The notes under the pieces were generated by a model that saw nothing but the letters and a program-made list of their open reading frames with translations, made no database searches and was not told where the DNA came from. A stretch of 64,000 nt of DNA from Paralichthys olivaceus (Eukaryota; Chordata; Actinopteri; Pleuronectiformes; Paralichthyidae). This document shows, in pieces, positions 42,925 through 49,440 of this stretch. The DNA is taken from contig NC_091102.1 in NCBI RefSeq assembly GCF_024713975.1, forward strand, positions 20,681,001-20,745,000, written 5' to 3'. The position numbers and the translations under genes are program-made. How positions within the stretch are numbered: the first letter of the stretch is position 1; every line of letters starts with the position of its first letter.

Positions 42925-43026
42925 ATTCCAATGGGAGTTGCAGCACTGCCCCTGTGAACGCGTCAGATTCAGCATATAAGTAGGAGCTGCAGGTGCTCCA
43001 CCTGAGCATTCGCTCTCTTACACACG
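42925..43026 (+). promoter_or_regulatory. Gene A core promoter and non-coding exon 1
   Basis: A TATA box (CATATAAGTAG, core 42975-42980) lies about 30 bp before a short putative exon whose donor is CACACG|GTAAGT (43026/43027). The 10-mer ATGGGAGTTG at 42931-42940 is also found upstream of gene C (48167-48176). The start site is inferred from TATA spacing. Confidence 0.55.
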
Positions 43027-43256
43027 GTAAGTTAGCTACGTTCATATAGTGACGGTTATTTTGTCATATAATTTTGATCTTTCACATTTTACTTGCATTT
43101 TACTTTTACTTACTTACTTACTTTGCATCTTCCATGTTTGAAAGTTGTGTAAAGTGCATTGCCTCTAATTGTTATCATCTTTTGGGGATCTGTGTGAAAG
43201 TATTTAAAACTGTACTTTTTTTTTCTCTCTTAAATTTTAGAATCTGAAGTTTGAAA

Positions 43257-44094
43257 ATGCCTAGACCAGGTAAATATAAGTGGCTCATCATTGCCTTTTT
43301 TCTTCCACATGCATTGAATGTGTAATATATTATCATCAATTATTATCCTCCTTATTACATGAGGCGGCTGTCATGGCAGTGGAGGCCATGGACATGGAGG
43401 CCACGGACATGGAGGACATGGACATGGAGGCCATGGCCATGGTGGTTGTGGTGGCGGCGGCGGCGGTCAAGGGAAATGTCGCAAACCTGGAGACAAGTGC
43501 AGAAGGAGGCGAAGGAAGGGCCACAAGCATTTAAAGTGTCACAAGAAGGGGAAGGACTGTCATGGGGTAAGATTCCCCACACAGAGAGGGAGACACAAGA
43601 CACACAGTTTTCTAAATTAACACAGGAATAGTCTCTTATTGATAACATGTTTTTCAGATTATTTACTGAGGTGTAGTATTTAAATGCATTTGTGCAAGAA
43701 CAGTGTATGCATCGCTTTCATTCACACAAGGATGTCATTTTTAGGACAAACGGGCTATGATAACAATGGAGCAGGTTGGGCTGTAATGCCTTGCTGAAGG
43801 GCAATCATAAAGGAAGAGCTTCCCCTTCCTTCCTGAAAGTGTTTTGAAACTTCACCTTTGGGACATTATTACTCTCTTCTCTTTCCTAGAAATGTATTTA
43901 AGGGACAAACGCAACCCAGCTAAGAATTACGTGACTTGCTGCCATCTTCACACTCTCAAATGTCAATAGTAAACTGTAATTCAAATGAGTTTGGTTGTCT
44001 CCAGAAGATTGAAGTGGTGTGTCTGCTCGTGTGTTCCTCTCTCCTCTAGTCTTCCAGCAGCTCCTGCAGCAGCAGCAGCAGTGACTCTGACTAG
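43257..44094 (+). CDS. His/Gly-rich small protein A (PRR13-like tandem copy)
   Basis: Coding exons 43257-43269 (13 nt, MPRP), 43364-43566, and 44050-44094 (tag stop); 86 aa in total. Exon 3 encodes GGCHGSGGHGHGGHGHGG-type repeats, a Gly/Cys linker, then a basic segment RRRRRKGHKHLKCHKKGKDCHG. Exon 4 encodes [14 protein letters not shown]. The intron phases (1, then 0) and the segment CHKKGK(N/D)CHG are identical in gene C. There is no signal peptide or membrane segment. The Ser-Asp tail and the tiny first coding exon resemble vertebrate PRR13, but the proline-rich part is missing, so the family tie is tentative. His/Cys spacing suggests metal binding (inference). AATAAA at 44290-44295. Confidence 0.75.
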
Positions 44095-45180
44095 ATTTCC
44101 GGATGAAGCGAGTTGACAGCTGGAAACCTTTATCCTCTTGTCTGTGTACAACAATCTGTTGACTTTATAGCCAAATGATTATTTACATTCACATGTTATG
44201 ATCTTGAAACTCAAATGGCTTAAAAGAACAAGTTTTTGTAACATATATATTGGGCTTTCCTGGGTTTTGGGGGTATTCAATTCTGATCTAATAAATGAAT
44301 ACGACAGTGAAAAGACAGTTTGATGGATTCTTTCTGAATAGCTTCAGTCGATTGACTTTTCAACTTTTGTCAGGTATATGGGCATTTCACAACTTTGTCG
44401 TTGTCTGATTAAAATGGCTTTCAAATTATTCTGATGGAGTGTGAATTTGTAGAAAAGTGAATAAATCCTGGTCAAGATCCAAGCTGTCAGAAATTGGGGA
44501 AAAGCAGGACTCAAATGCAGGAGCCAGTAAAATAATAAAAGTGTCCTTTAATAAGGCAAAAATAACGAGACACAAAAGCAGGCATGGTCCCAAAAACTAG
44601 TTTAAGAGAAACTAAATCAATCTGAAAAAACATTATAAACACAGGGAACAAGACACTGGAAAGATGGCGGTGAAAAACAACAAAGTCTAGATAAAGATAT
44701 GGACAAGGGAGGCAGGGATGACTGAACACAGGTGAAACACATAAGCAACATAAATTCAAAATAAAAGAGGAAGTGGAGAACTCAGGGGAAACAACTGAAC
44801 ACAAACCTAAATTCAAGAAAACACAGGTAAAGGTCAATAAACCAAAGAGTCTATAAAACAGAACCGAAATCTGTTTCAATCATAGTTCAAAAGTTCAGAA
44901 CCACAACGACCACGGGGTGACGGTGTAGTGTCGATCTTAATAATACAGATGGGCGGTGGTAAAAGATGTCATTTGCTAGTGACTGAAATAATCATTTTAT
45001 TACACACAGATCTTTGGGAAAAAGAAAAAAAAATTCCAATAAAGAAAAATATATCTAGTGTCTTGTGGTGACAAGCTATTCTGTTGCACAAGTATGATAA
45101 TTGAGCAAGAAGCATTGTACGTTAGCACACCTCGCAAAAGGATAAACAAAAGTTTAAAAAACTAACTTGGTGGGATTTTA
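44095..45180. other. Gene A 3' UTR and spacer with a probable dispersed repeat
   Basis: 3' UTR to AATAAA at 44290-44295. The stretch about 44480-44940 (beginning near 'gtcagaaattggggaaaagcagga', with 'tttaataaggcaaaaataacgaga') has the look of a teleost interspersed repeat. I could not define its ends or class. No gene is seen; the antisense open frame there (122 codons) is not supported. Confidence 0.35.
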
Positions 45181-45199
45181 GGCACAGCCCCTGATGATG

Positions 45200-45291
45200 T
45201 CTTCTGGGTTGTCTCAATCTGAGGTGTGGCGTAAGGTATAAATTCACAACCAGCAGAATGCCGTGTCTGTGGAACTGAACTACAACAAACA
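45200..45291 (+). promoter_or_regulatory. Gene B core promoter and non-coding exon 1
   Basis: TATAAAT at 45237-45243, then a probable exon 1 ending at ACAAACA|GTAAGT (45291/45292). The element CTCAATCTGAGGTGTGGC (45213-45230) is matched at 16 of 18 bases upstream of gene C (48181-48198), at a similar distance from the TATA position. Confidence 0.6.
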
Positions 45292-45353
45292 GTAAGTTCT
45301 CCAACCGCTAACAAGGACTTATTACCCTGGAGTGCGTTTGCATTCATATGCTT

Positions 45354-47196: not shown

Positions 47197-48140
47197 ATGT
47201 GAAGAGAAACCACCGGGAACCTTGGTCTTCCTGCCTACCATAGTAAACAGTTATTCAGCAACCAACACGTGTGCTTTTTCATCTCATCTCATCTCTTTTT
47301 GAGTCTTGTTTAGCTGCCACATGTTGTAATATCTTCAGTGTATCTCATATGTAAGGTCAAAATAGCAACACAGCTCCAGTCTCTGACTCCCTTCTGATGA
47401 ATTAGCTGCTTTAAAGAACTTTTCCATCAGTCTGCTACTGACAGATGTCTTACACATGAATTGTTCCTTTGTGATAAACAGCATATTGATAATAAAAGCA
47501 ATTAATCTCAATTATGTCATGCCTCTTATTTCATATCTGACCTCAGGGTTTCTTATTTCTGCTTGGTCTTTATCAGTGTCCACTGGTATTATCTGTATTT
47601 ACCCAGGGAAGGTTGAATTCAGACCTTTGTTCAGCAAAGTTTTCCACAAACAATTACACACCCTGCACCCTCCTACTGCATTCTCGTGCAACCTCTTGGA
47701 TCAAAGATATAGGTTTGTTAAATGTCAATCTTCCATTTCTTTTACAAATAACCCTGGTGTGATTTACTGTGAACTGGAGAAATGAGAATTCACGTATGTA
47801 GCTGTTGTCACTGCCTTAATGAAACTTTACTGCACTGCTGGCCCGGCACCAGTCACTGGTGTTTTGTGTTTGACAGCAGATAAAAACTGCAGAGTAATGC
47901 ACAGTGCTCTTGATAAGTTTAATAAATGAACTTTACACTCTGATAACAATTAATTTATCAAGCAATGGAAAAGATCAAATAATTCTAGTATTATGAAAAT
48001 GATGAAAACATCAGGGACAAAAACCTCAGTATAATAACATCTCAAAGGTTTTGGTGTGGCTGTGTGTATCTACAGTCAAGATTAGATCTTATATGGTCCA
48101 TAATGATTTTATGTCAAATATTAGATACACACACACCCAG
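47197..48140. other. Gene B 3' UTR and spacer to gene C
   Basis: AT-rich; a 109-codon open frame (47456-47785) shows no domain and crosses a candidate poly(A) signal, so I do not call it. Nothing else recognised. Confidence 0.4.
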
Positions 48141-48159
48141 TTAGGTCACAAAGGAAGAC

Positions 48160-48258
48160 TGTTCTGATGGGAGTTGAGTTCTCAAACTGAGGTGCGGCTG
48201 CACATAAGAGGGACCAACAGGTGTCGCATCTGTCTGTAGACCTTCTCTCCAGCACACA
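48160..48258 (+). promoter_or_regulatory. Gene C core promoter and non-coding exon 1
   Basis: ATGGGAGTTG (48167-48176, shared with A), CTCAAACTGAGGTGCGGC (48181-48198, shared with B), a TATA-like CATAAG (48203-48208) and a probable exon 1 ending GCACACA|GTAAGT (48258/48259). This copy carries both shared elements. Confidence 0.6.
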
Positions 48259-48386
48259 GTAAGTTCTCCTCTGACTCTCTGCTGATGATCTGTGCTCTGC
48301 AAGTTCCTGGACTCTGTGTGTATATTGAAATGCAAACGGCTTTTTCTTTCATTTTTAGGATCTGTACTTTTGTCTGAAGATTCAAA

Positions 48387-49097
48387 ATGTACGGACACAA
48401 CCAAGGTAAACATATACTTTCAAATAATCTATAATGAACTTGACAATAACTTTTGCAAATCATTTATGTAAAGCTTATTCCTCACTCCTTCTGATGTTTA
48501 GGAAACCAGTACCCCCCTGGCTACCCAAACAACCATCAACAGATGCCAGGGGGTTACCCACAATATCCTCCAGGCAGCGTCCCACCACCAAACTACCCTT
48601 CTCAGCCCCACGGTCCACACGGAGGCCAACCCGGATATGGGCCTGGGCCTGGTTATGGGCCTGGGCCTGGTTATGGCCAAGGGCACGGATACGGACAGGG
48701 CCACGGGCAGGGACATGGACCAGGCCACGGGCAGGGACATGGACAGGGCCACGGACCGGGCCACGGACAGGGCCATGGACAATGCCATGGACAGGGCCAT
48801 GGCCATGGCCAAGGGCATGGATCCGGACATGGTCATGGACATAGCCACAAGCACAAGCATGGTCACAAGCATGCCAAGTGTCACAAGAAAGGAAAGAACT
48901 GTCATGGGGTAAGATTCAACCATTTTCTCAAACACTGATTGCAGGTTTTAGATAAATTGTTCTTAAGATTTAGATTTTTCTATTAGATGCTGAGTTTTAC
49001 ATCAGTTTAAGAGGATTCAAATTTCATTGATGTGTGTTTGTGTTCTTCATCCCTGCTTTAGTCCTCCAGCAGCTCCTGCAGCAGTGACTCTGACTGA
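48387..49097 (+). CDS. Pro/Gly/His-rich protein C (PRR13-like tandem copy)
   Basis: Coding exons 48387-48405 (MYGHNQ + 1 nt), 48502-48908, and 49062-49097 (TGA stop); 153 aa. The N-terminal third is Pro/Tyr/Gln-rich ([30 protein letters not shown]), then GYGPGP and [10 protein letters not shown] repeats, then [27 protein letters not shown] basic His sequence and the tail [11 protein letters not shown]. The Pro-rich start, the HK-rich basic stretch and the Ser-Asp tail are the same order as mammalian PRR13, making this the copy closest to an ancestral form. No signal peptide or membrane segment. AATAAA at 49435-49440. Function unknown. Confidence 0.8.
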
Positions 49098-49440
49098 TAA
49101 AGATCCGTTGAGGGAAAGAGGGGAGGCACAGACCTTCATTCTTTGACCAGATACGATGATCAACATTTTACTGCCCAAATGTTTTTGAAAATGGATTTGT
49201 ATTTAAAAGAAAAAGTCATAATAATCAGGTTTCTGTGAAAATGTATTATATGAAAAAAAAACATTTAACTTTAAAAAACATTTTCATAATTTCATAACAT
49301 TGGTGTAACATTCCAGACATTATTGCATCTATGATTGTTTTTGAGTGATTACTGTGTGTGATAAATAGCAGTAAAGAAAAGTGAAGTGTCTTGCCTTTTC
49401 ATTTAGTTTTGTCTCACTTTTTCTCGTCATATAATAAAAA

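Follow-up and report, generated by a model that had tools for sequence, protein, structure and literature searches.

What are the three short Gly/His-rich genes that stand in a row between lss and hibch in Paralichthys olivaceus, and do they have relatives elsewhere in the genome? The stretch concerned (hereafter the window, 64,000 nucleotides, positions 20,681,001 to 20,745,000 of NC_091102.1) is part of contig C10; the genome, the one covered by our searches, comprises 588 Mb in 25 contigs. Our favoured answer is that genes A, B, and C are PRR13 (TXR1)-like genes arranged in tandem, with products that would be intracellular and disordered. We put the probability of this reading, which is drawn from the DNA and its translations, at about 0.5.

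Three Tandem Genes with a Common Layout

Genes A, B, and C are arranged head to tail, all on the + strand, and their models were rebuilt from the DNA sequence alone. The coding parts of gene A (product 86 aa) are 43257–43269, encoding MPRP and the first base of a Gly codon; 43364–43566, with a GGHGH repeat and the basic tail KCHKKGKDCHG; and 44050–44094, running to the stop. Those of gene B (206 aa) are 45696–45714 (MSGNNR and the first base of Gly), 45864–46429, in which a Pro/Cys-rich N part precedes a GHGHDH repeat (tandem array 46082–46347) and the tail RCHKRGRKCHG, and 47161–47196, again to the stop. Gene C (153 aa) consists of 48387–48405 (MYGHNQ and the first base of Gly), 48502–48908, with a Tyr/Pro-rich N part, a GQGHGPGH repeat, and a Cys-His tail, and the last coding exon to the stop at 49062–49097. 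All six coding introns are GT–AG. In each gene the first coding part is tiny (13 nt in A, 19 nt in B and C) and ends inside the Gly codon in phase 1, the single Gly/His-rich exon 3 finishes at CHx5CHG in phase 0, and the last exon reads SSSSSC...DSD; CHx5CH and SSSSSC are invariant in the three genes. An earlier, sequence-only reading of the window had described this coding layout, and it holds in all three genes.

The same reading had claimed a constant C-terminal module next to a diverged repeat exon, and the alignments agree. Scored against 300 mononucleotide shuffles, the exon-3 tails gave pairwise z-scores of 10.3, 19.7, and 18.6 and the last exons 14.9, 15.2, and 21.8, whereas intron 2 did not align above shuffles (−1.3 to −0.8) and introns 1 and 3 barely did so (0.9–2.1 and 0.4–2.8, respectively). 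The 3′ untranslated regions (UTRs) scored −0.2 to 2.4, the promoters 6.3 for B–C, 3.6 for A–B, and 3.0 for A–C, and the exon-2 5′UTR pieces 5.1 for A–C versus 1.8 for A–B and 0.4 for B–C, the last two amounting to no alignment. BLASTP matched the tails of B and C at E 2e-6. With shuffles preserving local composition, all pairs were still significant (z 4.0 for A–B, 4.2 for A–C, and 11.4 for B–C). Because the tail and last exon stand far above shuffles and the introns hardly do, and because the three pairs remain significant when the shuffles preserve local composition, A, B, and C are, judged by sequence, one family of old duplicates that has retained these two segments.

An open frame in exon 3 proves little alone, since several of the six frames are stop-free across it (three in A, three in B, and four in C). 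We compared repeat units at fixed shifts, position entropy of the repeats having been uninformative. Mismatches between units fell at codon position 3 in 5 of 5 cases in A (shift 15 nt), 47 of 65 in B (shift 18), and 48 of 62 in C (shift 18), and the bias had the same direction in all 14 gene–shift pairs tested; as repeat units are not independent, the P values of this test are nominal only. Nonsynonymous differences are common at some shifts, 22 codons against 15 synonymous ones in C at shift 24. With unit-to-unit changes falling mainly at third positions, the repeats look translated and constrained at the amino acid level, as would be expected if the His/Gly pattern were under purifying selection.

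A prr13 Pair with the Same Layout

The last exon, including the acceptor AG, was turned into a pattern (AGTCNTCCAGCAGCTCCTGCAGCAG) and searched for across the genome with up to three mismatches. It occurred at 18 places, versus 1 for the reversed control. The exact matches were A, B, and C, and the remaining 15 places had three mismatches. Two of these lie 4.6 kb apart on contig C2 and belong to a tandem gene pair (about 9.8999–9.9059 Mb); 12 were judged on the 25-base match alone, and the one on C5 was rejected as its Ser run reads on without DSD-stop. A protein search of the genome with gene C, in which 150 of 4,267 candidates were scored, found gene C alone at E ≤ 0.001.

That search made no use of the first coding exon, the middle exon, or the phases of the introns. 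In each of the C2 genes, the first coding part is 16 nt long and encodes MWPNQ and a split Gly (phase 1), and a single middle exon, Pro/Tyr-rich and then His/Lys-rich, ends in phase 0; in the second copy, this middle exon contains a GHHKGHDK repeat that calls to mind the His/Gly repeats in A–C. Their last exons open TCC TCC AGC AGC and continue to 11 Ser and DSD-stop in the first gene and to 14 Ser and D-stop in the second, which thus has SSSD instead of DSD. Upstream of the pair are exons of a TGF-beta-family receptor kinase (best match TGFBR1 in one search and BMPR2 in another), a gene that we name amhr2 by its position, and downstream is a PCBP2 KH exon. The human order is AMHR2, PRR13, PCBP2 (excerpt of PMC5477234), and an extract of a paper on ayu amhr2 has both prr13 and pcbp2 in its gene list (PMC8389408). 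Since the neighbors match the human order, the C2 tandem pair is prr13 (TXR1). The sequence-only reading had seen in A–C what looks like a lineage-specific family and had named no relative; put in that way, the view is not supported, as the prr13 pair of the same genome agrees with A–C in coding-exon layout and closely resembles them in the last exon.

Weighing Kinship and Its Rivals

The number of coding exons, their phases, and the split Gly are common to all five genes, three in the cluster and two of prr13. Further likenesses are the low-complexity middle exon, a Lys/His tail, and a poly-Ser C terminus in an exon of its own that opens TCN TCC AGC AGC, although this opening is not independent evidence because the last exon was the search query. 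Composition along the proteins follows a similar order, with a Pro-rich N part present in B and C, and, the last exon left out, all six comparisons of A–C with prr13 were significant by global shuffles (P 0.002–0.017). Given this coding-exon layout and so similar a last exon in the prr13 pair, we think it more probable that A–C have a PRR13-like origin than an unrelated one, without regarding this as proven, and rate common descent of the two sets, argued from layout and last exon, as somewhat more likely than not. The cluster would be PRR13-like rather than orthologous to prr13, because A–C sit at lss–hibch while the C2 pair fits the AMHR2–PRR13–PCBP2 synteny.

A number of results weigh against our favoured reading as a whole, and several of them would suit convergence, in which A–C are an independent low-complexity family of fish whose likeness to prr13 is confined to composition and a short Ser/Asp end. 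When local composition was kept (again with the last exon left out), five of the six comparisons with prr13 showed no letter-level similarity beyond it (P 0.23–0.66), only C versus the second prr13 copy being marginal (P 0.042), and BLASTP of that pair, the one run, gave E 0.14. With letter-level similarity mostly vanishing in this way, kinship rests on layout and last exon. CHx5CH and the Cys of the last exon, both present in A–C, are absent from prr13, and gene A is without the Pro/Tyr N part. Pfam returned nothing above cutoff for A–C (below threshold, TrAA12 for C, DUF755 for A, and none for B) and no match for the prr13 middle exons. Nor do the promoters suggest that the set is metal-induced: the metal-response core TGCRCNC occurs in one of the three (A 1, at 42911; B 0; C 0), with 0.26 expected per 510 bp, and a scan with 12 motifs found none common to all three. 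Alignment shows that A–C are without the hydrophobic stretch and the Met/Lys-rich KKMKKAHK segment of both fish prr13 genes. Their His and Gly are far higher, and with 3.5% Pro in A, 9.7% in B, and 13.1% in C they fall short of the about 30% of the human protein. What speaks against convergence is that coding-exon number, phases, and split Gly agree in all five genes although the search by which the two sets were connected did not draw on them; we hold convergence to be doubtful, while taking it seriously.

The remaining alternatives concern what A–C are or do rather than their origin. That they are not genes at all but minisatellites open by chance would agree with the several open frames over each exon 3 and the tandem arrays present, but the third-position bias of the repeats, a tail and last exon that are conserved while the introns have diverged, and the consistency of splice sites and phases make this scarcely credible. 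They could instead be structural or phase-separating proteins whose Gly/His/Tyr repeats form pH-responsive condensates, like the squid beak histidine-rich proteins (HBPs), rather than bind metal: A–C share with these low-complexity Gly/His-rich repeats, they are without a hydrophobic core, and C has YGQGHG and YGPGP repeats. However, squid HBPs coacervate via GHGxY repeats with His as the pH switch (excerpt of PMC6884462), whereas the coacervation-driving GHGxY is absent from A, B, and C and A contains no aromatic residue, and we find the idea unlikely. Less probable still is a role as nuclear-speckle proteins targeted by histidine repeats. A–C are His-rich and possibly nuclear, PRR13 being described as nuclear (PMC11936294), and His repeats can target speckles (PMC2644819); yet this latter study reports no effect for 5 consecutive His and a weak one for 6, with about 6 needed, whereas no His run in the three proteins is longer than 1.

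Protein Features

The intracellular location proposed for the products agrees with hydropathy: the sequence-only reading had stated that none has a signal peptide, and no hydrophobic N terminus was found in A, B, or C, as judged by hydropathy rather than by a signal-peptide predictor. The most hydrophobic 10-residue stretch has a mean of 1.45 in B, at residue 45, and of −0.34 in A and C. Disorder is likewise suggested by composition. His makes up 15–27% of the proteins, and the CHx5CH tail places two Cys and two His beside the His-rich repeat. On this composition, the Zn/Cu/Ni binding suggested in the sequence-only reading is plausible; taken on its own, metal binding is a tentative proposal, which we hold at well under even odds. 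The Ser/Asp ends of A–C carry CK2-type sites as the CK2 motif is commonly defined. Residues 18–22 of gene B (window 45896–45910) read PGPGF, which we take to fit the PxPGF type of ALG-2/PDCD6-binding motif, possibly by chance in a Pro/Gly-rich stretch.

Published work describes human PRR13 as a protein of 18.8 kDa in which no domains can be identified, with about 30% Pro and a Ser-rich C terminus (PMC11911201), links it to lowered thrombospondin-1 in taxane resistance, and reports no effect of Prr13 loss in mouse CD4 T cells in a malaria model (both PMC11936294). Among the papers returned by our literature searches, as far as titles and the first lines of abstracts tell, none apparently deals with a His/Gly-rich teleost cluster near hibch, and "PRR13-like" phrases found nothing.

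Noncoding Exons, Signals, and Neighboring Sequence

A shared noncoding exon 1 was also part of the sequence-only reading and is likely by its signals: in all three genes a GTAAGT donor lies 53–56 nt past a TATA-like site. For gene A, a TATA-like ATATAAG at 42974, matched in the TATA scan, precedes the donor at 43027 (likely exon within 42974–43026); for gene B, a TATA box at 45237, also matched in the scan, precedes the donor at 45292 (45237–45291); and for gene C, CATAAGA, found by eye and without a scan match, precedes the donor at 48259 (48203–48258). Exon 2, with a stretch of 5′UTR before the first coding nucleotides, spans 43241–43269 in A, 45674–45714 in B, and 48359–48405 in C. PolyA-type signals follow at 44290, 44408, and 44460 in A, at 47491 in B, and at 49433 in C.

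The placement of the cluster between LSS and HIBCH was borne out. Upstream, an lss (lanosterol synthase) exon lies within a reading frame at 39666–39866 (match to 1w6k, E 7.5e-30) and downstream a hibch exon lies within one at 51938–52090 (match to 3bpt, E 1.8e-12), both on the + strand. Just upstream of the cluster, at 42325–42354, is TTACTTTATTAATCCCTCAAGGGGAAATTC; we take it to resemble the terminus of a retroelement common in fish, possibly relevant to the arrival of a gene copy. Elsewhere in the window, a long open frame at 13619–15712 contains about ten FG-type repeats and resembles the N terminus of mcm3ap/GANP; this would be a minisatellite that is translated as part of a nucleoporin-like region.

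Proposed Origin and Role

Under the PRR13-like reading, a prr13-like gene would have been copied to the lss–hibch site and then duplicated there; conceivably, A–C and prr13 might also be sisters from a whole-genome duplication, on Hox paralogons. The hydrophobic stretch and the Met/Lys segment known from prr13 would have been lost and the middle exon would have become a His/Gly repeat, with products that are intracellular and disordered. The repeat beside the invariant CHx5CH would make a plausible Zn/Cu (or redox) site, and the poly-Ser-Asp end, in common with prr13, could serve for CK2-type phosphorylation and as a binding tag. A–C would then be small proteins that bind or buffer inside the cell, with the repeat setting metal capacity and the constant tail setting location or partner. 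Our best-supported guess from the sequences is a disordered protein inside the cell, built on a PRR13-like frame, that either binds metal (Zn/Cu) or has a redox role. Bolder, and in our estimate rather improbable, is the full scenario of a fish metal-handling family made from a remodeled taxane-resistance gene, in which PRR13 would have contributed its splicing frame and Ser-Asp tail, His/Gly repeats and a new Cys-His metal site would have taken the place of the middle exon, and repeat number would then have been tuned in three tandem copies.

PRR13 is described as having no recognized domains and its mode of action is poorly explained, and diverged relatives in tandem that retain its exon frame and Ser-Asp end around a replaced middle would show which part of it matters. 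Genes A–C would also illustrate cleanly how low-complexity exons can change inside a fixed gene frame, and they would provide three candidate metal-binding proteins in fish.

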